59,928 bases of DNA from Halorubrum ezzemoulense DSM 17463. GTDB taxonomy: Archaea > Halobacteriota > Halobacteria > Halobacteriales > Haloferacaceae. The stretch lies in contig NZ_NEDJ01000013.1 of the NCBI RefSeq assembly GCF_002114285.1, forward strand, positions 1 to 59,928, written 5' to 3'. The notes below the pieces were generated by a model, which saw only the letters and a program-made list of their open reading frames with translations, did no database searches and was not told the DNA's origin. Positions 6,925-18,812 of this stretch are shown here, piece after piece (the stretch's first letter is position 1; each line of letters begins with the position of its first letter). Made by a program: the position numbers and the translations under genes.

Positions 6925-7131
6925 TCACCCCAGGCCGTGAGCGAGACCGGAAATAAGCACCAACAGAAACAGCGCGACGAGGAGCAGGAGTACTGCGAGC
7001 TTGGTGCCGAGCGCGCAAGACGGACCGCCGCCTCGAACTCCGCTCCGTCGCGGTCGAATCGGTACGTCCACGTTCACGATCCGCCCTGCGGTCGAATCGA
7101 AGTCACCGGTCGGTCTCCGCCGCGACGGCAT
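6925..7131 (-). CDS. possible small single-span membrane protein
   Basis: The frame gives up to 68 residues ending in a strongly hydrophobic segment (LAVLLLLVALFLLVLI) two residues after GTK. The ATG at 7131 lies inside the end of the stalk-protein gene (29-nt overlap); GTG codons slightly downstream are alternative starts and would shorten the N-terminus by about 20 residues. It is the last gene of the apparent SipW operon. I do not recognise a family. The hydrophobic end and its place in the operon are the main support. Confidence 0.4.
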   Translation of the reverse strand: MPSRRRPTGDFDSTAGRIVNVDVPIRPRRSGVRGGGPSCALGTKLAVLLLLVALFLLVLISGLAHGLG

Positions 7132-8146
7132 CGACCGTGCTCGGCGAAGCGGCGGCGCCGGTCGCGTCCCCCGCGCTGGCCGATCCGTTCGCCGTCGGCT
7201 CGGTCGTGTTCTCCGGCGGCTCCGGCGACGGTTCGGACGGCTCCGACGCGTCGTCATCGTCCGTCTGGCTCGTCGCGTCGGTCTCCGACCTCTGCGCGTC
7301 AGACGTGCTGTCGTCGGTGTTCGACGTGTCGTCGGTGTTCGACGTGTCGTCATCGTCTGTCAGAGTCTTCGCGTTGGTCTCCGAACTCTGTGCGTCAGAC
7401 GTGCTGTCGTCGGTGTTCGACGTGTCGTCGGTGCCCGAGGATGTCACGGCCGGGTCGGACTCGTTGCTGTCCGTGTCTGCGGATGTCACGGCCGGGTCAG
7501 ACTCGTTGCTGTCCGTGTCTGCGGATGTCACGGCCGGGTCAGACTCGTTGCTGTCCGTGTCTGCGGATGTCACGGCCGGGCTCGACGCGCTCTCGTTCGC
7601 AGCGTCAGCCGTATCGGAATCCGTGGTGTCCGGCGTTTCAGACGGACTATCCTCGTTTTCCACGGTTGCCGTTTCGTTCCCCGACTGATCCGCTTCGGCT
7701 GTCGCCGAGTCGGTTACCGGGACCGAGGCGTTGGTGTCCGCGGTGGGTTCCGAGACGTTGCCGCCAGTGGGCGCCGAGACGTTGCCGCCAGTGGGCGCCG
7801 AGACGTTGCCGCCAGTGGGCGCCGAGACGTTGCTCCCAGCGGGCGCCGAAACGTTGCTCCCAACGGGCGCCGAGACATTCTGGTCCAGTCCGGCGCCGTC
7901 TCCGTCAGGGTCGCTCGTCCCGTTCTCGACGGCCACCGCGGTGAGATCGACATCGGCGGTCTCGTTGGTCTGGCTGCCGTTGGTCGAGGTCTCGTTGATC
8001 TGGTTCAGTTCGTCCGGGGTTTCGAACGTCGCGGTCACGTCGACGCTCGCCGAGAGGACGGCGACCGTGGCCCCTCCGGCGAACGCGACGCCCCACACGA
8101 GGACCGCCAGCGCGACGAGCGCGACGAGCCCACGGTTCGCGGCCAT
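7103..8146 (-). CDS. secreted/anchored low-complexity repeat (stalk) protein
   Basis: The protein has 347 residues. Residues about 7-32 form a hydrophobic leader or anchor, followed by a short strand-rich part (ASVDVTATFETPDELNQ). The rest is Ser/Thr/Asp/Asn-rich. It contains five or more copies of an 8-residue unit with an NVS glycosylation sequon (NVSAPTGG), three copies of a 14-residue unit (PAVTSADTDSNESD), and two long imperfect copies of a DTSNTDDSTSDAQ unit. NES/NVS/NET sequons are dense, so it is probably heavily N-glycosylated. The start overlaps the signal-peptidase stop by one base (TGATG). A role as a stalk or surface polymer is inference. Confidence 0.75.
   Translation of the reverse strand: MAANRGLVALVALAVLVWGVAFAGGATVAVLSASVDVTATFETPDELNQINETSTNGSQTNETADVDLTAVAVENGTSDPDGDGAGLDQNVSAPVGSNVSAPAGSNVSAPTGGNVSAPTGGNVSAPTGGNVSEPTADTNASVPVTDSATAEADQSGNETATVENEDSPSETPDTTDSDTADAANESASSPAVTSADTDSNESDPAVTSADTDSNESDPAVTSADTDSNESDPAVTSSGTDDTSNTDDSTSDAQSSETNAKTLTDDDDTSNTDDTSNTDDSTSDAQRSETDATSQTDDDDASEPSEPSPEPPENTTEPTANGSASAGDATGAAASPSTVDAVAAETDR
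7438..7581 (-). repeat. 42-bp tandem repeat, three copies plus a partial
   Basis: Units at 7438-7479, 7480-7521 and 7522-7563 are nearly identical; an 18-bp partial copy follows. The unit length is a multiple of three and encodes the 14-residue PAVTSADTDSNESD repeat of the stalk protein, so copy-number change would keep the frame. Confidence 0.9.
7752..7871 (-). repeat. 24-bp tandem repeat, five copies
   Basis: Units at 7752, 7776, 7800, 7824 and 7848; the first three are identical and the last two differ at a few bases. Each encodes an 8-residue NVSAPTGG-type unit with one N-glycosylation sequon. Confidence 0.9.
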
Positions 8147-9261
8147 CAGTCGCCCTCCCCGGCGGCCTCGGGACGTGAGACCGGTGTCGACCCGGGCGTC
8201 GACGCCGGCTCGGCCCCGTCCTCGGCCGCCGTCGTCTCCGCCCCGGCGGCGACCGCCGCCGAGTCGACGGTGTCGTTCGGCTCGGACGCGCCCCCGTCGG
8301 ACTCGGGGGAGTCTCCGTTACGCATCGCGTCTGTCGTCGGTCCGCTTGCGTCCGTCTCGACAGCCGGATCCGGCGTTCCACCGCTGCGGTCCAAGACACC
8401 GCTGGCGGGCACCCACGCGGCGAGCGCCCCGAGCAGCAGCGTCGACACGCCGATCGCGACCGATATCGCGACGGCGGTCCGGAGCTCGAACGCGACGTAC
8501 ACCGCGTACGGGGCGAACGCGGCGAGCACCGCCGCCGCGCCGCCGACGGCGTCGACCGAGACGCCCCCGGAACCGCTCGCCTCCTCCGTCGCCTGCGCCG
8601 TCACGATTTCGGCCGCGGGACCGGGTCCAGCCGCCGGGTCGGGCCCGACTACCGGATCGAGTCCGGCCGTCGCCCCGTCTCCGTCGCCGGGTTCGTCGAC
8701 GGGGTCGACCGGATCGACGGTCATCGAGGGTTGCGATTCAGATCCGTCGCGGCCCCGGACGATAGACCAGATCTCCGTCGCGGCGAGCAGCCCGAACGGG
8801 AACAGGACCAGCGCGACGAACCCCACTCGCGTCCCCGCGAACTGGATCACGTACCCGACGTACGGGATCGTCAGCGTCACGGCGCCGACGAGGCTCCCGG
8901 CGGGGACGAGCCCCGGATCCGGCCCCTCGTTGGCGTCGCCCATCGTCTCGAACGCGAGCGTGCCGGCCTCGTCGACCACGTCGATCACGCGGTGCGTCAC
9001 CGGCACGTCGCTCGTGCCGCGGACGAACGTGATCACGTCGCCCTCGGCGATCGCAGTCGGGTCGCGCTCGGCGACGATCACCACGTCGCCCGGCGCGATG
9101 GCGGGCGTCATGCTCGCCGTGAGCACGACGAAGCTCTCGTCCGCGCCGACGACCTCCGGCGCCGCGTACACCGCGAACGGTGCGACGAGGGCGATCAGCA
9201 GGACGATCCCGAGTACGTTCGCCGCGCGCTTCGTCCGTGGTGATGTGAGTAGTTTGGTCAT
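8146..9261 (-). CDS. SipW-type signal peptidase I with long C-terminal extension
   Basis: The protein has 371 residues from the ATG at 9261, which overlaps the upstream stop as TGATG (a Met at 9282 is the alternative). After an N-terminal membrane helix (17-36) come the S26B active-site boxes: VVLTASMTPAI with catalytic Ser50, VPVTHRVID with His90 in place of the bacterial Lys, and MGDANEGPD with the Asp box. A second hydrophobic segment follows near 125-165. The C-terminal half is acidic and disordered with a further hydrophobic stretch near 230-275. SipW-type peptidases process TasA/camelysin-like fibre subunits; here the neighbours carry such leaders, so they are probable substrates. Confidence 0.9.
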   Translation of the reverse strand: MTKLLTSPRTKRAANVLGIVLLIALVAPFAVYAAPEVVGADESFVVLTASMTPAIAPGDVVIVAERDPTAIAEGDVITFVRGTSDVPVTHRVIDVVDEAGTLAFETMGDANEGPDPGLVPAGSLVGAVTLTIPYVGYVIQFAGTRVGFVALVLFPFGLLAATEIWSIVRGRDGSESQPSMTVDPVDPVDEPGDGDGATAGLDPVVGPDPAAGPGPAAEIVTAQATEEASGSGGVSVDAVGGAAAVLAAFAPYAVYVAFELRTAVAISVAIGVSTLLLGALAAWVPASGVLDRSGGTPDPAVETDASGPTTDAMRNGDSPESDGGASEPNDTVDSAAVAAGAETTAAEDGAEPASTPGSTPVSRPEAAGEGD

Positions 9262-10370
9262 CAGTTCTCCTCCGTGCCGCACAGCGGCTCACCGCCCGTG
9301 GTCGCGGCCGCGGCGATCTCGTACAGCCCGCCGTAGACGTCGCCGACCCGGAGCGGAACCGAACAGCTCGTGTGGATGTTGACGCCCGCGTGGCCGCCGC
9401 CGTTGCCGCCATTTCCGTTTCCTCTGCTGCCGCCGCCGTTTCCGCCAGTACCGTCGGCGTCGGTCTCGGGGTCGGTGCCCGTCCCGCCGTCGTCGAGGTA
9501 GATGTTGGGGCCGATCCAGCCCGGGTCGCCGTTGGTCGGCGCGGCGGTCCCGTCGACCACGAAAGTCCCGTCCGGAGTCACCTCGCCGTCGAACACGGTC
9601 GTCCCGGCGGTGCCTCGACCGCCCGCGCCGCCGCCGGTGGCGACGACGACCACGGTCGCCGGGTCGTCGCCGAGGTACCGGAGCGTGAGCGAGCCGACCG
9701 CGACGCCGTTCTCGTCCTCGCAGGGGACGCACGCGGACGCGCACTCGGTCTCTACGAAGGGGTTCGACCTCGCCGCGTCCGCCTCGGCGACGTGGCGGCA
9801 CTGCTCCGCGTACACCCGGAACGTCAGGTCGGTCGCCGCGCCGCCCACGTCGGGCGAGTCCGCCGGGAGGTACGGGAACACCTCGACGGCGACCGGGTCG
9901 GCGTCGGGCCCGAGACACCGGGCGTCGATCCGCACCCCGGTCGCGAGGTCGCGCTCGACCTCGGCGAGGGGGCGGTACCCGCCGGTCACGGATTCGCCGT
10001 CGACGACGACATCGACCTCTAGGGCGTTCCCGAGGCGATCGCCGTCCGGACAGGGGGTCGCGAGCCACACCCGTACCGGGTTCGCCGACGCCCCCACGTC
10101 AAACGTCTCGGGTCCGGGACGCTCGTCGAACGTCGTCCGATCGACGGTCAGCGGGCCGAGCGAGACGGTCCCGTCGGTGGGGTCCCCATCGACCGTCAGT
10201 CCGACCTCGCCGGCGCCGAAGACATTGCCCGGGAACGTCTCCCGATCGGCGAGGTACGCGCCCGTGCCCATGCCGCTCGCCATGCCGACCGCGCCGACGC
10301 CGCCGATCCCGGCGAGCAGCCGTCGTCGGCTCAGCCCGCCCGGGCGCCGCCCGCCGTCGTCGGGGCTCAT
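9261..10370 (-). CDS. SipW-dependent-type exported protein
   Basis: The product has 369 residues, starting MSPDDGGRRPGG at 10370. The start forms an ATGA overlap with the upstream gene; the longer frame upstream is arginine-rich and unlikely. The leader LSRRRLLAGIGGVGAVG ends in GTGAYLADRETFPGN, followed by FGAGEVGLTVDG, the pattern of SipW-processed proteins (small-residue hydrophobic core, then an aromatic/D-x-E segment and N-x-hydrophobic-x-A-G). The mature part is a predicted beta-sandwich with Cys pairs (CPDGD, CLGPDAD, CASACVPC). A Gly/Asn-rich linker precedes a terminal module (NIHTSCSVPLRVGDVYG) of a type found in TasA-like surface proteins. Probably a surface or fibre protein. Confidence 0.75.
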   Translation of the reverse strand: MSPDDGGRRPGGLSRRRLLAGIGGVGAVGMASGMGTGAYLADRETFPGNVFGAGEVGLTVDGDPTDGTVSLGPLTVDRTTFDERPGPETFDVGASANPVRVWLATPCPDGDRLGNALEVDVVVDGESVTGGYRPLAEVERDLATGVRIDARCLGPDADPVAVEVFPYLPADSPDVGGAATDLTFRVYAEQCRHVAEADAARSNPFVETECASACVPCEDENGVAVGSLTLRYLGDDPATVVVVATGGGAGGRGTAGTTVFDGEVTPDGTFVVDGTAAPTNGDPGWIGPNIYLDDGGTGTDPETDADGTGGNGGGSRGNGNGGNGGGHAGVNIHTSCSVPLRVGDVYGGLYEIAAAATTGGEPLCGTEEN

Positions 10371-11137
10371 GCGTCGCCTCCGGCGCCGCCGCCCCCGGCC
10401 GCTACGTTCCCGTCGAAGGGGTTCCCCTCGGCGCCGCACTCGTCGGCGGCGAACTCCACGAGGAAGTCGACCGCGCCGCCCTGTCCGGCGTTGCCGCCCT
10501 CGCTGTCGAACTCCCACGCGAAGGTCAGGCAGCGCTGTTCGCCCGGGGCGAGGCAGCCGTCGCCGAGGAGCCCGGGGCGCAGTTCGATCCCGTCCGCGAG
10601 CGCGGAGCCGTCGATGTCCGCGAACGTCTCGTCGGCGATCAGCTCCCCGGCGCTCGCGAACTCGCCTTCGGCGCCGCCGCAGCTACCGATGCCGAATATC
10701 CCGGTGTCCTGCCGGACCGTGAGCGTGACGCGCTCCGCGAGCGCGGCGCTCGCGGCGTCGGCGCCGTCGAGGTGCGGGTCGATCCGCAGCCACACGCGGG
10801 CGGTGTCCTCCGGATCTTCGAGCCGGAGCCCGACGCTCGCGGTGCCGTAATCGTGCGGCAGCGCGTTGCCCACGTCGACGAGCCGGACGCCGACCGCTCC
10901 GACGTCGTCGACCGCGCCGACCGCGCTCGAATCAACGAGCGTCCCGTTCTCCGTGCGCCGCCACCCGACGAGCAGATTGAACGGCGTGTCCGTCTGAGCG
11001 TACGTGTAGTTCGTGTACTCGTCCCAGTTGTCCGTTCCCGTCGGTCGTCCGGAGGCGGCCCCGAGGGCCGCGAAGCCGACGGCTCCGGCGCCCGCGAGTG
11101 CCTCCCGCCGCGTGAGTCCCGATTCTTTCTGTGTCAT
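10367..11137 (-). CDS. exported TasA/SipW-type protein
   Basis: The product has 256 residues. The leader TRREALAGAGAVGFAALGAASG carries twin arginines and a small-residue core, followed by a mature part beginning near residue 30. The beta-rich body ends with the family trait of a Cys plus C-terminal LTFAWEF...VDFLVEFAADECG, like the ends of the larger vWA proteins (LEWELP, FTWEVP). It is the first gene of the overlapping run down to 6925 (ATGA/TGATG junctions). The 200-nt upstream spacer should carry the operon promoter. Confidence 0.7.
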   Translation of the reverse strand: MTQKESGLTRREALAGAGAVGFAALGAASGRPTGTDNWDEYTNYTYAQTDTPFNLLVGWRRTENGTLVDSSAVGAVDDVGAVGVRLVDVGNALPHDYGTASVGLRLEDPEDTARVWLRIDPHLDGADAASAALAERVTLTVRQDTGIFGIGSCGGAEGEFASAGELIADETFADIDGSALADGIELRPGLLGDGCLAPGEQRCLTFAWEFDSEGGNAGQGGAVDFLVEFAADECGAEGNPFDGNVAAGGGGAGGDA

Positions 11138-11337
11138 TGTGTGTCGTCGCGGCTCCGAACGGCCGTATCGTCGATACCCTTCCTACTCTCACGACGCTCG
11201 TATGTATGCGCGCCCTACCCGCCCGGACCGGTGACCGTTCCGGGCGGTACGGACGCCGTACCCGCCCGCGGTCGGCCGATCGGCAACAGACCTTCGTTCC
11301 CGCCCGCCGACGCCGCGACGCGGTCCGAGACGCGCTC
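11138..11337 (-). promoter_or_regulatory. spacer with likely promoter of the SipW operon
   Basis: No gene is visible. A perfect 6-bp palindrome with a 1-nt centre (gtatcg-t-cgatac) lies at 11166-11178. On the minus strand, a CATACATA element at about 11198-11205 is preceded by GC-rich sequence; similar elements precede the genes at 17988 and 16508. This could be a core promoter element with a leader of about 35 nt. Confidence 0.35.
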
Positions 11338-13044
11338 TCAGGCCGACTGAACCCCCGCGCCGTCGTTGTGGCGCGCCTGCTCGGTGTAGAAGCCGAGGTC
11401 GAAGCCGAGCGCGTCGCCCTGAACCTCGTTGCCCACGCCGATCGGCAGCTCCCATTCGAGCGCGACGCAGTGCATCACGCCGTCGCCCGCGAACGGGTCG
11501 CGGTTCTCGTCGTCGGCCGGGTCGGCCAGCTCGCCGTACGGCGTCGCGCGGTTCCCATCGAGCGGGATTCCGTCGCCGCTCTCGAGCTCGTCGAGCACGT
11601 CCGCGAGCGAGCCATCGATGATGATCTTCTCCTGTCCAGTCTGTGCCGCGAGGTTCCCGAACACCGAGGGAATGACGAGCAGGTCGTCGATGTCGTTGAA
11701 GAATGACGGATCGCCGCCCGGCCCCCCCGCGGGGCCGGCCATCGACGACAGCACCGCGTCGTTCGCGCTGCCGACGGAGATGGTGTACACGTTCGTCGCG
11801 GGGTTCGGCGACGCCGCGCGGGCGTCGTCGGCTGCGTCCACGGGGTCGGCGAACTGGGTGCTGCCGGTCCCGTTGAACGACTCCCCGTCGGAGAGGACGA
11901 TGTTCCGGAACTCGACGCCGCCGCGGCCGTTCGCGTCGAGTTCGGCCTGCGCGTCGTTGACGCCCTCGCCGATGTACGTCCCCGTCGCGATGCCGCTCGC
12001 GTTCGAGAACGGGTCCGCGTCGCTGTCGTCGATGTCGGGGTCGTTGTTCGTCCCGCTGACGACGTTCGCGAGCTTCTTCCGGAGCCCGTCGAGCGCGTCG
12101 TCGACATCGTCGAGGTCGGCCGTCAGCGGCTGGAGGAGCCCGGTCCTAGGCTCGGTGTCGCCGCTCCCCTCGCCGTCGAAGTACGTGACGCCGACCTGGA
12201 CGTCCGACCCCTGCGACTCGAGGTAGTCGACGAACTGGCGGGTGCCGAGCTCGACGAGGTCGATCTTCGTGGTCTCGTCGTAGGTGGTCCCGCCCACCGT
12301 GATGTTGTCCTCGCTCACCACGCCGTCGAACTGATCGTACAGCATCGACCCCGAGAAGTCCAGCGTGAGCATGATGTCGACCGGCTCCGCGCCGTCGTAC
12401 ACGTTGTCGCAGTCCTCGTCGTACCAGAGCTTCGCCTCAATGGCGTCGCCGAGGTCGCCGACGTTATCCGGGTCGACGGTCAGTTCCGGTTCGGTTTCGG
12501 TGCCGCCGTCGTCGTCGACGTTGGCCGCCTGCATCCAGATGTAGCCGGGGTTGTCACAGAGGTGGAGCGAGAAGGTGATCTCGCCGGAGTCGCCGGGCTT
12601 CACGTCGGTGAGCCGGACCAGCGTCTTCATCACCTCGCCCGTGACGGGGTCCGTGCCGAAGTCCGCCTCCGACAGCGGCGGGATGGTCTCGCAGTCCAGG
12701 ATCGGAAGGTTCGCGCCGTTGCTGTCCTCGTCGTCCTCGTCCGGGAAGTCGCTGTACGTGAACACCTCGCCGTCGATCTCGATCGACTGCTCGCCGTCGC
12801 CGTCGTGGTCCGGGTGCGCGCTGACGAACTGGTTGCCCTCGCCGAAGTCGTAGGTCTGTTGCCAGTCGACGAGCAGGTCCAGCTGGCCCGCGGTGAGGGT
12901 GTTCCCGTCGAACGACTCGGTGTCGTTGAAGTACGCCGTGGTACCGAGACCCGCGCCAGCCGAGGCCACGCCGACCGCGCCGAGGCCGGCCAGCACGGTC
13001 CGCCGCGACAGTCCGATGGAGTCGATGTTGTCGTTGTCTGCCAT
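11338..13044 (-). CDS. SipW-type surface protein with inserted von Willebrand A domain
   Basis: The protein has 568 residues from ATG 13044 (MADNDNIDSIGLSRR); the extra upstream frame to 13131 is not conserved. The leader SRRTVLAGLGAVGVASAGAG runs to GTTAYFNDTESFDGN and TAGQLDLLVDW, a clear SipW-type signal with a twin-arginine pair. A beta-sandwich half (60-220, DVKPGDSGEITFSLHLCDNP) is interrupted by a vWA domain (about 222-475) with MIDAS DFSGS at 229-233. The second half resumes at GQEKIIIDGSLADVLDEL and ends WELPIGVGNEVQGDALGF, EQARHNDGAG. Likely displayed on the cell surface, with the vWA domain binding a ligand through a metal ion. Confidence 0.85.
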   Translation of the reverse strand: MADNDNIDSIGLSRRTVLAGLGAVGVASAGAGLGTTAYFNDTESFDGNTLTAGQLDLLVDWQQTYDFGEGNQFVSAHPDHDGDGEQSIEIDGEVFTYSDFPDEDDEDSNGANLPILDCETIPPLSEADFGTDPVTGEVMKTLVRLTDVKPGDSGEITFSLHLCDNPGYIWMQAANVDDDGGTETEPELTVDPDNVGDLGDAIEAKLWYDEDCDNVYDGAEPVDIMLTLDFSGSMLYDQFDGVVSEDNITVGGTTYDETTKIDLVELGTRQFVDYLESQGSDVQVGVTYFDGEGSGDTEPRTGLLQPLTADLDDVDDALDGLRKKLANVVSGTNNDPDIDDSDADPFSNASGIATGTYIGEGVNDAQAELDANGRGGVEFRNIVLSDGESFNGTGSTQFADPVDAADDARAASPNPATNVYTISVGSANDAVLSSMAGPAGGPGGDPSFFNDIDDLLVIPSVFGNLAAQTGQEKIIIDGSLADVLDELESGDGIPLDGNRATPYGELADPADDENRDPFAGDGVMHCVALEWELPIGVGNEVQGDALGFDLGFYTEQARHNDGAGVQSA

Positions 13045-13158
13045 GATTGTGAATCCCCGAAGGGAGTCCCACCGACGGAGTCGAACCGTCGTCCCGGCCG
13101 CCCGCGCGGGTCCGGGGTGGGAGGCGATCACGCCGCTTCGAGCGACGTCGTCAGCACG

Positions 13159-14502
13159 TTAGTCGCTGAACTCGATCGCGTTCGCGCTGTTGTAGAAGTC
13201 CGGGCCCAACGAGGGGTCGACGTTGACCTCCGCGATGGGTCCCTCGCCGCCGGTGCTGCCGTACCCGAGCAGCCGGAACGTCGGGTTGATGTCGCTGTTC
13301 GGGATTCCGAACACGATCGTGTTCCCGACCTTCACTGCCGAGAAGCCGGCCGGAAGCGGTTCGGCGGCGCCGTAGCTCCCGCCGTTGTTCGGCTGGTAGC
13401 CGAACGGCGCGTCCGGGAACCCGGCGTTGGGCTGCCAGATGAGCTGCCAGTCGTGGGTGCCGTCATCGTCCGCGTCGACCGCGACCGGGAGATTCGTGCT
13501 GGAGTAGTCCGCGGTGTCGAGGAAGTCGACCCCGTCGCCGTCGTCGGCGAACGCGAAGCTCAGAACGGTCTGGTTCTGGCCGAACGAGACGCTGGTGTAG
13601 ACGTTGCCCTCGGTGGGGTTGCCGAGCGTCTGGCCCTTCCAGTCGTTGTCGTACGCCGTGACGACGGTCTCGTCGACGCAGGGGTTGTGCGCCCCGTCGT
13701 TGTGGCGAGCCTGAACCGCGTAGAACTCGAAGTCGAACATGACCGAGTCCGTCTGGATCTCGTTTTCGACGCTCGTCGGCACCTCCCAAGTGAAGCAGAC
13801 GCACTGCTCGTCGACGTTCGGTTCGCCGTCGGTGAACGCCTCCGTGACGCCATCGAAGGTGGGACGATCCGCGAGGGGCGCGTTCGCATCGCCGTCGCTG
13901 GACAGCGGGACGCCGGCCCGGAGCGCGAGCATCACGTCCCGCAGCGAGCCGGAGACGATTTCGTCGCCGATGTCGTTGCCGCCGTCGCCGTCGTCGGTAC
14001 AGTACGAGACGGTTACCTGCATCGCGTCCGCGAGTTCGCCCGTGCCGTCTCCGGGGTCGCCGCCGGTGTCGTCGTCGTCCATCTCGGGCTCGGACTGCCC
14101 GTTCTCCGCGTTCGCGGTCAGCTCGCCGCACATCCACATGTACGCGGGGTTGTCGACGATCGAGAAGCAGAACTCGCCCTCGCCGGAGTCGCCGGGTTTC
14201 AGGTCGGAGACCCGGATGCTGAGGGGGTCGCCCGTCGAGCCTTGGCCCTCGATCCCGACCACGTTCCCGTCGACGTACGTTCCCGGCTCCGTGGAGTACT
14301 GCGCGTAGCTGCCCTGGTCCTCAGAGTAGTCGACGTGGACGAACAGGTCGAGCGAACCGGCCGTCAGCTCGTTGTTCGCGAACGTCTCCGTGTCGTTGAA
14401 GTACGCCGTGGTGCCGAGGCCCGCGCCCGCGGAGGCCACGCCGACCGCACCGAGTCCGACCAGCATCTTGCGCCGCGATAGTCCGATTTTGTCGTCGTTC
14501 AT
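13159..14502 (-). CDS. SipW-type surface protein without vWA, with extra C-terminal domain
   Basis: The product has 447 residues from ATG 14502 (MNDDKIGLSRRKMLVG). It has the same leader as its two neighbours (GLGAVGVASAGAGLG, TTAYFNDTETF) and the same beta-sandwich: LKPGDSGEGEFCFSIVDNPAYMW, then DEIVSGSLRDVMLAL, then CFTWEVPTSVENEIQTD and VQARHNDGAHNP. The site where the two paralogs carry vWA is uninterrupted here. After residue about 280 there is an additional beta-rich region (VVTAYDNDWKGQTLGNP, then NPTFRLLGYGSTGGEGP) that the paralogs lack. Role as surface or fibre subunit is inferred. Confidence 0.8.
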   Translation of the reverse strand: MNDDKIGLSRRKMLVGLGAVGVASAGAGLGTTAYFNDTETFANNELTAGSLDLFVHVDYSEDQGSYAQYSTEPGTYVDGNVVGIEGQGSTGDPLSIRVSDLKPGDSGEGEFCFSIVDNPAYMWMCGELTANAENGQSEPEMDDDDTGGDPGDGTGELADAMQVTVSYCTDDGDGGNDIGDEIVSGSLRDVMLALRAGVPLSSDGDANAPLADRPTFDGVTEAFTDGEPNVDEQCVCFTWEVPTSVENEIQTDSVMFDFEFYAVQARHNDGAHNPCVDETVVTAYDNDWKGQTLGNPTEGNVYTSVSFGQNQTVLSFAFADDGDGVDFLDTADYSSTNLPVAVDADDDGTHDWQLIWQPNAGFPDAPFGYQPNNGGSYGAAEPLPAGFSAVKVGNTIVFGIPNSDINPTFRLLGYGSTGGEGPIAEVNVDPSLGPDFYNSANAIEFSD

Positions 14503-14624
14503 GATATGTTGTCCCCAGTGGGGGACTCCCGGTGGCGGTCGCGAACCGCCGCGTCGGCCGCCCGAAGGCGCCGAGCCGGGAACCGGACGTGTCTCGTCGT
14601 CCGGGGCCGCGTTGCTCCGAGGAG

Positions 14625-16112
14625 CTAGTTCGGATTGCTCACATTGCCGGTGCCGTTGGGGGCGGGACCGGGGCTGGTGCTGTTCACGTCGGTCCCGTTG
14701 AACGCCACCTGCGGGTCGTCGTTGTGCCGCGACTGCTCGGCGTAGACAGCGAGATCGAAGCTCACGGAGTCGGTCTGGATCTCGTTGCCGACATCCGCCG
14801 GGAGCGTCCACTCGAAGCCGATGCACTGGGTGGTCGCGCCGGGGTACGGCTGCCGACCCTCCTCCTGCCGGTTGCCGTCGAGCGCCTCGCCGTCGGCCAG
14901 CTCCGCGAAGACCTCGCTCATCGTGCCGGAGAGGATCTTCTGTTCGCCCGCTAAGACGATCTGCGCGATCTCGGCGTAGACCGTGTCGAGGTCGGCCGGG
15001 TCGGGCGCGAGGAACGCGTCGCCGGGCGACGACGAGATGTCCTGGACGAGGCTGGCGTCGACGTTGTTGCCGAGCCCGATCCCGAAGATACGCGTGCCGG
15101 CGTTCTTGGCCGCGGTGGCGGCCGTCCGAGCGTCGCCGACGTTCTCGAAGCCGTCGGTCAAGACGATCATGACCTTCGAGGCGCCGGGCGTCGCGTTCGT
15201 GCCGCTCGTGAGCTCGGTCTGTGCGACGTTGATCCCGCCCGCGACGTTCGTGCTGCCGGACGCGGTGTAGTTGTTGATCGCGTTGATGACGTCTTGGTAG
15301 GTGGTCGTCAGCTTCTGGTCCAGCGACGCGCCGCTCGCGAACGAGATCGCGGCGGCCTCGTCCGGCGACGAGAGGTTACCGACGAAGCTCGTTGCGGCCG
15401 CCTGTAGCGCCGAAAGGTTCGCGCCGCTCATCGAGCCGGAGGTGTCGCTGACCAAGGCGACCTCAAGCTCCTGCCGCTCGCCCGTGCCCGTGGGCTCGTA
15501 CACGTTGTCGCAGTCCTCGTCGTACCAGACGCAGACCTCGATGGCGTCGGCGAGGTCGCCCTGGTCGGGCGTGTCGTCCGCGTCCGCCTCGGGCTCGGAC
15601 TGCCCGTTCTCCGCCTGGGTTAGCTCGCCCGCGAGGTAGACGTACGCGGGGTTGTCACAGATGTGGAGGCTGATCGTCACCTCGCCGGAGTCGCCGGGCT
15701 TCACGTCGTCGAGCGTGAACACCGGGATCCCGTCGCCGTTGACGAGGAACTCGTCCATCGCCGGTGAACAGAAGTCGATCTCGCCGGTCACGTAGTCCTC
15801 CCAACTCTGCCCCTCTCCGGGCGCGGGCGTCTGGTCGAGCAGGTAGCGCCCGTCGCCGAGGTCCTCGACGTCAGGGTACCCCATCGCCTCGATGTCGTCT
15901 AGGCGCCCGGGGCCGCCGAGGTACGTCGACTTGTAGTCCAGCTTCAGGTCCAGCTCGCCCGCGGTGAGGGTGTTCCCGTCGAACGACTCGGTGTCGTTGA
16001 AGTACGCCGTGGTACCGAGTCCCGCGCCCGCGGACGCGACGCCGACCGCGCCGAGGCCCGCGAGCACCTTGCGCCGCGAGAGTCCGATTTTGTCGTTTGT
16101 GTCTTTGCTCAT
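14625..16112 (-). CDS. SipW-type surface protein with inserted von Willebrand A domain
   Basis: The product has 495 residues from ATG 16112 (MSKDTNDKIGLSRRKVLAG). The SipW/Tat-like leader ends in TTAYFNDTESFDGN. A beta-sandwich half (about 55-210; VKPGDSGEVTISLHICDNP) leads into a compact vWA domain (about 215-385) with MIDAS DTSGS at 223-227, a GSTNVAGGI threonine loop and VLTDGFENVGD. The sandwich resumes with GEQKILSGTMSEVFAEL and ends in WTLPADVGNEIQTDSVSFDL, EQSRHNDDP. It is the first gene of the leftward surface-protein series; 122-200 nt spacers separate it and the next two, so they may have their own promoters. Confidence 0.87.
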   Translation of the reverse strand: MSKDTNDKIGLSRRKVLAGLGAVGVASAGAGLGTTAYFNDTESFDGNTLTAGELDLKLDYKSTYLGGPGRLDDIEAMGYPDVEDLGDGRYLLDQTPAPGEGQSWEDYVTGEIDFCSPAMDEFLVNGDGIPVFTLDDVKPGDSGEVTISLHICDNPAYVYLAGELTQAENGQSEPEADADDTPDQGDLADAIEVCVWYDEDCDNVYEPTGTGERQELEVALVSDTSGSMSGANLSALQAAATSFVGNLSSPDEAAAISFASGASLDQKLTTTYQDVINAINNYTASGSTNVAGGINVAQTELTSGTNATPGASKVMIVLTDGFENVGDARTAATAAKNAGTRIFGIGLGNNVDASLVQDISSSPGDAFLAPDPADLDTVYAEIAQIVLAGEQKILSGTMSEVFAELADGEALDGNRQEEGRQPYPGATTQCIGFEWTLPADVGNEIQTDSVSFDLAVYAEQSRHNDDPQVAFNGTDVNSTSPGPAPNGTGNVSNPN

Positions 16113-16507: not shown

Positions 16508-17038
16508 ATGAAACTCCGAAACGACGTGCTTCCGGCCGAACAGGTGTACGCCATCCTCGCGAACGAGCGCCGACGGCGCGCGATCGAACAGCTCAGCTCC
16601 GTCGGCGGGACGGTCTCGGTCAACGAGCTGTCGACGCTCGTCGCGCGCCGCGAGACGGGGGAGACCCCGCCCCCGAAGCGCTGTCGCGAGAGCGTGTACA
16701 CGTCGCTGGTCCAGACGCACCTCCCGAAGCTGGCCGAGGCGGGCGTGATAACGTACGACCGCGAGTCGCAGACGCTCGAACTCTCTCGACGCGCACGCGA
16801 CGTGCGCCTGTACACGGAGATTCTCGCGCCCGGCGGCGCGACGTGGTCGGAGCTGTACCGCGCGCTGGCGGTGGGATCGCTGCTCGTCGTGCTCGCCGCG
16901 CTCCTCGACGTCCCGCTCGTGTCGGCGGTCGACCCCATGCTGTGGACCAGCCTCGCGCTCGGCGCCTTCGCCGCCGCCAGCGCCGCCCAGCTGTGGGTCA
17001 ACCGCTTCTCGGTATTGCGACAGCTGCGGCTACGCTGA
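16508..17038 (+). CDS. membrane-bound winged-helix regulator (DUF7344-like), paralog 1
   Basis: The product has 176 residues. Residues about 8-105 form a winged helix-turn-helix of the haloarchaeal DUF7344 type (AILANERRRRAIEQLSS, VNELSTLVARRE, YTSLVQTHLPKLAEAGVI, YDRESQTLELS). Two hydrophobic helices follow (120-140 and 148-168), so it is probably anchored to the membrane with the DNA-binding part in the cytoplasm. It shares the layout with the protein at 18258-18812. Its position divergent to the surface-protein genes suggests it controls them; this is inference. Confidence 0.8.
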   Translation: MKLRNDVLPAEQVYAILANERRRRAIEQLSSVGGTVSVNELSTLVARRETGETPPPKRCRESVYTSLVQTHLPKLAEAGVITYDRESQTLELSRRARDVRLYTEILAPGGATWSELYRALAVGSLLVVLAALLDVPLVSAVDPMLWTSLALGAFAAASAAQLWVNRFSVLRQLRLR

Positions 17039-18013: not shown

Positions 18014-18023
18014 CTATGTATGC
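18014..18023 (-). promoter_or_regulatory. CATACATA promoter-like element for the 17988 gene
   Basis: Read on the minus strand, gcgcatacata lies 26-35 nt before the ATG at 17988, the spacing of a TATA box for a leaderless transcript. The same core occurs before the SipW operon (about 11198) and, as catacatatac, before 16508. Confidence 0.45.
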
Positions 18024-18257
18024 GCCGCCTACCGCGTCCGACGCGGGCTCTCCGGCCCACAACATCGTTACAGCGCCCGGACAAATCCACTTGTATCGAT
18101 GTGATGAACTGTGTCGGAGACGTCAAGAACGCCCGAAGTACGGCGAGTGTGTACGGTTCTGTTCGGGCGAATCTTCCGGGGACCGGCTCTAGTGGGTACA
18201 ATGCGAAGTGATATATCCTCCCATGATAACCGTACTCTCATTCGGCATGTATGAGCT

Positions 18258-18812
18258 ATGACACCACAACTCGCCAAACAAGCGGCGTCGTCGGACACCG
18301 ACGGTGAGGGCCCCTCGCGCGACGAGGTGTTCACCGCGCTGAGCAATCGGCGGCGTCGCAACGTGATCAAGTACCTGAAGACCAACGGCACCGAGGCGCG
18401 CGTCAGGGATATCGCCGAGCAGCTGGCCGCGTGGGAGAACGACGTCGAGATTCCGGCGGTGACGTACAAGCAGCGCAAGCGCGTGTACACCGCGCTCCAC
18501 CAGTCGCACCTGCCGAAGCTGGCGGCGAGCGGGTTCATCGACTACGAGTCGGACCGGGGGCTGGTGTCGCTCACCGAGGAGAGCCGACAGCTGGAGGTGT
18601 ACCTGGAGATCGTCTCGGAGAACGAGATCCTCTGGGCCGAGTACTACGCGGGGCTCGCGGTCGTGTGCGGACTGCTGGCGACGGCGGGGTGGACCGGGAC
18701 CGCCCCGTTCGGCGCGGTCTCCGGGTACGCGTACGCGGCGCTCTTCACGCTCGTGTTCGGGGCGTCCGGGATCGCTCACCGGGCGTCGACGAAGCGGAAC
18801 CGGCTGGGATGA
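18258..18812 (+). CDS. membrane-bound winged-helix regulator (DUF7344-like), paralog 2
   Basis: The product has 184 residues. The DNA-binding part is FTALSNRRRRNVIKYLK, RVRDIAEQLAAWEN, KRVYTALHQSHLPKLAASGFI, DYESDRGLVSLT. Two hydrophobic helices follow near residues 130-150 and 155-172. It is clearly paralogous to the 16508 gene. A TATA-like gatatatcc at 18208-18216 lies about 45 nt upstream. It may regulate the nearby surface locus or its own expression; no direct evidence. Confidence 0.8.
   Translation: MTPQLAKQAASSDTDGEGPSRDEVFTALSNRRRRNVIKYLKTNGTEARVRDIAEQLAAWENDVEIPAVTYKQRKRVYTALHQSHLPKLAASGFIDYESDRGLVSLTEESRQLEVYLEIVSENEILWAEYYAGLAVVCGLLATAGWTGTAPFGAVSGYAYAALFTLVFGASGIAHRASTKRNRLG

Follow-up and report, generated by a model that had tools for sequence, protein, structure and literature searches.

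The window analyzed here, a 59,928-base contig of a 3.6 Mb haloarchaeal genome, contains a cluster of leftward genes that probably encodes a TasA/SipW-type surface fiber adapted to haloarchaea. The nearest named relatives of the locus are from Halorubrum. An earlier note on this DNA, written from the sequence without database searches, had proposed an archaeal SipW-type system with TasA-like cargo, and this lead idea is supported by a fold match between one subunit and the TasA fiber and by the co-occurrence of the genes in other genomes. Based on start sites and gene calls, seven solid genes run leftward from 16112 to 7103. For simplicity, they were annotated as C1 to C5 (the candidate cargo), SipW and REP, as listed below.

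14625..16112, minus strand: C1, 495 amino acids (aa); TasA-like subunit by profile, with an inserted vWA domain and a Tat (twin-arginine translocation)/SipW-type leader, SRRKVL...GTTAYFNDTESF
14976..15461, minus strand: vWA domain of C1, residues 218-379
13159..14502, minus strand: C2, 447 aa; TasA-like by profile, without vWA; continuous domain at residues 3-267 followed by an unnamed C-terminal domain
11338..13044, minus strand: C3, 568 aa; TasA-like by profile, with a divergent vWA insert from residue ~211 to 467
10367..11137, minus strand: C4, 256 aa; predicted TasA-like domain; twin-arginine leader without the AYFxD core
9261..10370, minus strand: C5, 369 aa; SipW-type Tat leader, partial TasA-like signal, DUF7467 C-terminal domain
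8146..9261, minus strand: SipW-type signal peptidase, 371 aa; Ser50/His90, long C-terminal extension
7103..8146, minus strand: REP, 347 aa; rich in Asn sequons

TasA-like subunits and an inserted vWA domain

To compare the predicted folds with TasA, a check that the earlier note had proposed, AlphaFold models were obtained for C1 (pLDDT, the predicted local distance difference test, of 77.9) and C4 (mean pLDDT 75.2) from 49 and 47 aligned relatives, respectively. Because the fold search with C1 was dominated by vWA structures, C4 was taken for the TasA question. With the C4 model, Foldseek ranked the TasA fiber (8aur_A) first of 350,542 solved chains, with an E-value of 2.4e-5 and a probability of 1.00. 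The lower ranks included the archaeal (Sulfolobus) thread 7pnb, the Pyrobaculum bundling pilus 7ueg, and Pyrodictium CanA.

The sequence profile of C4 connects the remaining subunits to this fold. It matches C2 in one piece and matches C1 and C3 in two pieces on either side of the vWA (residues 8-201 and 388-467 of C1, residues 11-210 and 468-558 of C3). By this profile comparison C1-C3 share the TasA-like domain of C4, and the split matches indicate that the vWA is inserted in one loop of that domain. The vWA match itself is strong in C1 (Pfam, 3.6e-24) and weak in C3 (1.5e-4, slightly under the cut-off). In C1, the residues of the metal ion-dependent adhesion site (MIDAS; DxSxS...D), D223, S225, S227, and D320, are invariant in the 49-sequence alignment. 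The earlier note was thus correct that vWA-bearing subunits are present, and had missed both that the vWA lies inside a TasA-like domain and that C4 is TasA-like. Family models place the leaders and accessory domains as follows. The SipW-leader model TIGR04088 scores C1-C3 above its cut-off and C5 slightly under (18.4 versus 19). Pfam PF12389, for the TasA/camelysin family, scores C2 above its cut-off (23.7 versus 22.5) over the leader only and C1 and C3 under it, with no match for C4 or C5.

The insertion is a recurring feature of subunits of the C1-C3 kind, hereafter called majors. An insert of more than 130 aa at the same loop was found in 81 of 178 classifiable majors, ~73 of which have a MIDAS-like motif. 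Some lineages carry a different repeat in the vWA loop, judged by eye to be propeller-like (L103:2366-4084, L119:4984-6729, and L079 from 6061); a Pfam scan of these insert sequences returned no family above cut-off.

The signal peptidase, the leaders, and the predicted export route

The gene product annotated as SipW passes the archaeal signal peptidase I model TIGR02228 (101 bits, cut-off 51.9). Its match to the Bacillus SipW model NF046067 (1.7e-26, 93 bits, cut-off 190) identifies it as homologous to, though not the equivalog of, the Bacillus enzyme. S50 and H90 are invariant across 13 homologs, which is the signature of an S26 signal peptidase in which Ser/His replaces Ser/Lys. The C-terminal extension holds two additional hydrophobic segments (residues 236-255 and 259-288), and the protein is 300-411 aa long in nearly all C4-bearing loci versus ~133-203 aa in short loci, so the extension marks the C4-bearing class of locus. 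A Ser/His-type peptidase with a long C-terminal extension is therefore borne out, as is the description of REP as sequon-rich: REP has 18 sequons, as compared to a mean of 6.9 and a maximum of 12 in shuffled sequences. REP orthologs keep a SipW-type leader in which the twin arginines are absent (GTLAVFSDEVTVQGN), which most likely makes REP a further cargo protein.

Leaders with the AY(F/L)xDxExF pattern are present in C1, C2, C3, and C5. C4 has the twin-arginine part without the AYFxD core; the pattern is thus shared by four leaders and not by five, as had been stated. Within the same genome, the C1 leader has good matches to the five cluster genes only. With gene starts extended, the Tat pattern, twin arginines ahead of a hydrophobic stretch, was counted in 191 of 195 majors, 44 of 51 C4 proteins, 41 of 44 C5 proteins, and 2 of 40 REP proteins, and the genome contains three TatC matches. 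The Tat pathway is heavily used in haloarchaea, and the leader of TasA is of the Sec (general secretion) type. The suggestion that the cargo is exported folded by Tat fits these leaders, and from their sequences C1-C5 would be Tat substrates. In relatives of the same phylum outside Halobacteria, TasA-SipW neighbors have Sec-type leaders without twin arginines, so the Tat route is most simply a haloarchaeal change.

Conservation of the gene order

Of 194 genomes from the class Halobacteria, 86 contain a relative of SipW, and these cover 39 of 65 genera. Gene order was read from 20 retrieved regions together with 80 named loci (Halorubrum, Halobellus, Halopenitus, Natrialbaceae, Haloarchaeobius, Haloglomus, and others). 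The recurring order, with local losses, is HTH2(-) W17(+) HTH1(-) majors(1-5)+ C4+ C5+ SipW+ REP+, where HTH1, HTH2, and W17 are flanking genes described below. C4, C5, SipW, and majors occur together in 44 of the 80 named loci. The co-occurrence that the earlier note had asked to see in other genomes is thus found, with the order majors-C4-C5-SipW-REP recurring across families. The chromosomal position is syntenic in many congeners, with mutS on one side and a ZIP transporter gene on the other.

Two other arrangements were seen in the course of this survey. Haloferax species loci (L109, L114, L117, L121, and L126) are short and show a simpler form of the system, in which a single TasA-like gene is paired with a SipW-type peptidase of small size. 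In L155, L156, L161, and L162, from non-halophiles of the same phylum, two SipW-like peptidases adjoin TasA-like cargo genes.

A private motif and the extent of the unit

The conserved unit extends beyond the seven genes and reaches HTH1, W17, and HTH2, so the bounds first given to the cluster were too narrow. The additional features are the following.

16508..17038, plus strand: HTH1, winged-helix protein (DUF7344) that has a hydrophobic segment in its C-terminal part; oriented divergently to C1
17125..17988, minus strand: W17, unnamed protein; CxxC pairs, hydrophobic segment near the N terminus; carries the private motif upstream
18258..18812, plus strand: HTH2, second DUF7344 protein; syntenic, without the motif
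11201..11218, minus strand: motif GTA-N7-CATACATA; CATACATA starts 71 nucleotides (nt) before C4
16420..16437, plus strand: motif GTA-N7-CATACATA, 78 nt before HTH1
18015..18032, minus strand: motif GTA-N7-CATACATA, 34 nt before W17
6925..7077 (GTG start at 7077) or to 7131 (ATG start), minus strand: possible tiny membrane open reading frame, weakly supported

The block CATACATA was found upstream of HTH1 and C4 by aligning intergenic gaps, and its extended form is GTA-N7-CATACATA. Only three copies of the extended motif exist in the genome as a whole, upstream of C4, HTH1, and W17. Across the named loci (3.08 Mb, both strands counted), the octamer CATACATA occurs 71 times, and 58 of these occurrences are explained by genes with a site at most 150 nt upstream (12 before W17, 22 before HTH1, and 24 before C4). 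One upstream site precedes HTH2, and none precedes majors, C5, SipW, or REP. Among 23 genomes of the genus, the extended motif is present in 15, a set identical to that of the genomes having a close SipW (E-value ~1e-68 or better). The eight genomes without it have no SipW, a stop-bearing copy, or a divergent SipW only. A control spacing of N6 gave eight scattered matches in the 23 genomes and none in the genome of the window, and DNA folding gave no hairpin at the C4 motif site. In the genome with the stop-bearing copy (G439:C19:4891-5223), the interrupted SipW and the missing motif suggest joint decay.

From this distribution, C4-C5-SipW-REP is probably a transcription unit of its own, co-controlled with HTH1 and W17, and HTH1 may be the regulator that binds the motif. 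Neither the regulatory unit nor the motif had been noticed in the earlier note. It is conceivable that GTA-N7-CATACATA is a mere basal promoter of the TATA type with no cluster-specific control, as in most loci that have the motif ahead of W17 its distance to the gene start is 33-34 nt, which is where the TATA box of a leaderless transcript would be. However, the motif has only three copies in 3.6 Mb, all in the cluster, and its presence agrees with that of a close SipW in all 23 genomes, and we consider a purely basal role improbable.

The spacing of the leftward genes was also determined. Three junctions overlap, namely C4/C5 by 4 nt (ATGA), C5/SipW by 1 nt, and SipW/REP by 1 nt. These involve only four genes, fewer than the five or six proposed. 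The gaps measure 122 nt (C1/C2), 114 nt (C2/C3), and 200 nt (C3/C4), and the last contains the conserved promoter-like element. The leftward run had been described as eight genes. Seven of these stand, and the eighth, the tiny membrane open reading frame, is doubtful, as a recognizable counterpart was seen in just one of the 14 loci of the genus that were checked.

W17 was considered as a cluster-specific gene and rejected, given that its family occurs in 165 of 194 genomes with 1-8 copies each; linkage and the motif alone tie it to the locus. It lies within 16 kb of at least 45 of 87 SipW places, as compared to 0.87 expected, and no Pfam family matched it above cut-off. Elsewhere in the same genome (L137, 2087-3075; G000:C10), a DUF7344-like gene is adjacent to one for a protein with a leader (MKRRTLILLLGG...GTGAFSNVSAER), and the beginning of this protein is similar to the solved 'Pilin' 9p0a (E-value 0.0016).

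A proposed mechanism of assembly

In TasA, each mature subunit lends its N-terminal strand to complete the one that follows, and TapA has been proposed as the chain starter (PMC9674648, PMC10151520). By analogy, we propose that C1-C3, together with C5 and probably C4, would be folded in the cytoplasm before their twin-arginine leaders direct them through Tat. The membrane peptidase SipW would then cut the leader at the A-Y-F junction and release the N-terminal strand to complete the next subunit's sandwich in a donor-strand polymerization, as in TasA. C1-C3 are the likely polymer. With the vWA seated in one sandwich loop, the MIDAS-bearing domains of C1 and C3 would project from the fiber and be displayed along it or at its end, where they may bind other cells, matrix, or surfaces in the manner of pilus-tip proteins. 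C4, which is without the SipW cut motif, may act as an initiator, anchor, or cap in a TapA-like role. C5 would be accessory cargo, and REP would be a Sec-type SipW cargo serving as a glycosylated accessory or stalk. C4-C5-SipW-REP would be expressed as one unit and switched with HTH1 and W17 through the private promoter element.

Several points weigh against this reading. It was only with C4 that a fold match to TasA was obtained, at a template modeling score of ~0.4 and with a mean pLDDT of 75, and the structural matches of C1 are mostly to vWA, with the pilus adhesin SpaC covering most of the C1 length. At the sequence level, profiles of short majors without vWA match TasA marginally (E-value ~0.3), and C5 is only partially TasA-like by profile. 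The AYFxD core expected at a SipW cut is absent from C4. The motif was discovered after inspection of an alignment, and the subsequent genome-wide test was clean. Finally, the gene content, the homology of the domains, the insertion, the types of leader, the conservation, and the motif are computational results; the export route, cleavage, polymerization, adhesion, the part played by each minor component, the transcription units, and HTH1 as regulator are predictions from these results.

A further proposal, which we offer tentatively, is that in haloarchaea a Sec-exported TasA fiber became a Tat-exported display fiber with whole foreign domains inserted, and that the subunit genes are swapped as cassettes from strain to strain while the secretion genes and the private element stay constant. 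If subunits fold before export, whole domains (the vWA, and the propeller-like repeat in some lineages) could be inserted in one exposed loop and presented along the fiber.

Research on haloarchaeal surface filaments has concentrated on type IV pili and archaella. If correct, the assignment made here would add a further widespread haloarchaeal fiber system with a testable link to the bacterial TasA fiber. With export through Tat, subunits would already be folded when they leave the cytoplasm and would polymerize only once the leader is cut, which would be a simple guard against premature assembly. In addition, a domain-accepting loop and a secretion unit with its own private promoter element make the system amenable to genetic tests.

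Alternative explanations

Part of the evidence could indicate that the locus is an accessory or recombining cassette for surface variation, such as virus escape or mate and strain recognition, with surface adhesion secondary. Between locus L034 and the window, the three majors are 37-48% identical, as compared to 93% for HTH1 and 84% for C4. In the Halorubrum ezzemoulense pan-genome, the mutually exclusive islands 4 and 5, described as 'adhesion/signaling' and located beside a 'Peptidase S24' gene, are probably this locus (PMC11078007). A search of the genome of the window with the Peptidase_S24 model gave no match and is uninformative. Megaplasmid copies also exist, although the one in the same species is annotated piecewise only. 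This explanation is compatible with a fiber and overlaps with it. The islands are equated with the locus by inference, and the variation is not tied to viruses or mating; as the principal role of the cluster, surface variation seems to us possible but rather doubtful.

It is also conceivable that the cluster encodes SipW-processed surface proteins with TasA-like domains, each of which remains a single adhesin or enzyme at the membrane or S-layer without ever polymerizing. A TasA-like fold alone is no proof of polymerization, vWA proteins are often monomeric, and there are several differing subunits here rather than one major one. However, the N-terminal segment that corresponds to the TasA donor strand belongs to the best conserved regions of the majors, and SipW-TasA pairs form fibers in the Bacillus systems studied (PMC9674648, PMC13082335). 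On this basis we regard strictly single adhesins as unlikely and retain the TasA/SipW-type fiber as the preferred reading. That the locus is part of a provirus or a type IV pilus system has nothing positive in its favor and is very improbable, given its syntenic chromosomal position in many congeners and that no pilin, ATPase, or prepilin-peptidase gene was recognized in the cluster and no pilin-type, ATPase, or platform gene by Pfam/NCBIfam among the proteins of the unit or in the conserved order. A scan of viral contigs with the C-terminal half of SipW, which is not conserved, gave no match and is uninformative about viruses.

Comparison with known systems

To call the system undescribed would be too strong. 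Archaeal TasA homologs and archaeal TasA-like bundling pili have been published (PMC10903470, PMC10151520), the NCBI annotation names parts of the locus 'SipW-dependent-type signal peptide' and 'vWA domain-containing' proteins, and the island pair has been reported (PMC11078007). Neither a description of the system as such nor a functional test of it was found in the open-access literature, most subscription papers lying outside this scope, and the main text of a Halorubrum lacusprofundi biofilm proteomics study (PMC5118699) makes no mention of von Willebrand or signal peptidase proteins. To our knowledge, the domain insertion, the Tat/Sec contrast, the assignment of C4, and the private motif are new, while the parts and the kind of system were already known.

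Among the closest counterparts are the tapA-sipW-tasA genes of Bacillus subtilis and sipW-tasA, capP, and calY of B. cereus. These share a Ser/His SipW-type peptidase clustered with TasA-like cargo, an A-F/Y leader junction in the cargo, a separate partner protein, and the TasA fiber fold matched by C4. The locus described here differs in its twin-arginine leaders, its several subunits, some with an inserted vWA, the long C-terminal extension of SipW, and its own archaeal regulators and motif. The archaeal bundling pili (AbpA of Pyrobaculum calidifontis, 7ueg) are likewise TasA-like donor-strand filaments and stand at rank 32 in the C4 fold search (E-value 0.025), but no AbpA sequence match was obtained in the searches run. 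The TasA-SipW clusters of non-halophiles of the same phylum (L155-L164) also place a TasA-like domain and a SipW-type peptidase side by side, but their leaders are without twin arginines and nearly all of their cargo is ~200-310 aa long, under the size needed for a vWA insert, with one exception of 468 aa. Islands 4 and 5, termed 'homeocassettes', resemble the locus in their peptidase and vWA genes and predicted role, and differ in having been reported as islands with no specific function assigned. Lastly, the pilus-tip vWA adhesins SpaC and Mfa5, both among the C1 matches, carry a MIDAS vWA on a surface-fiber protein. Their fiber scaffolds are unrelated to that proposed here, where the vWA lies inside a TasA-like domain.

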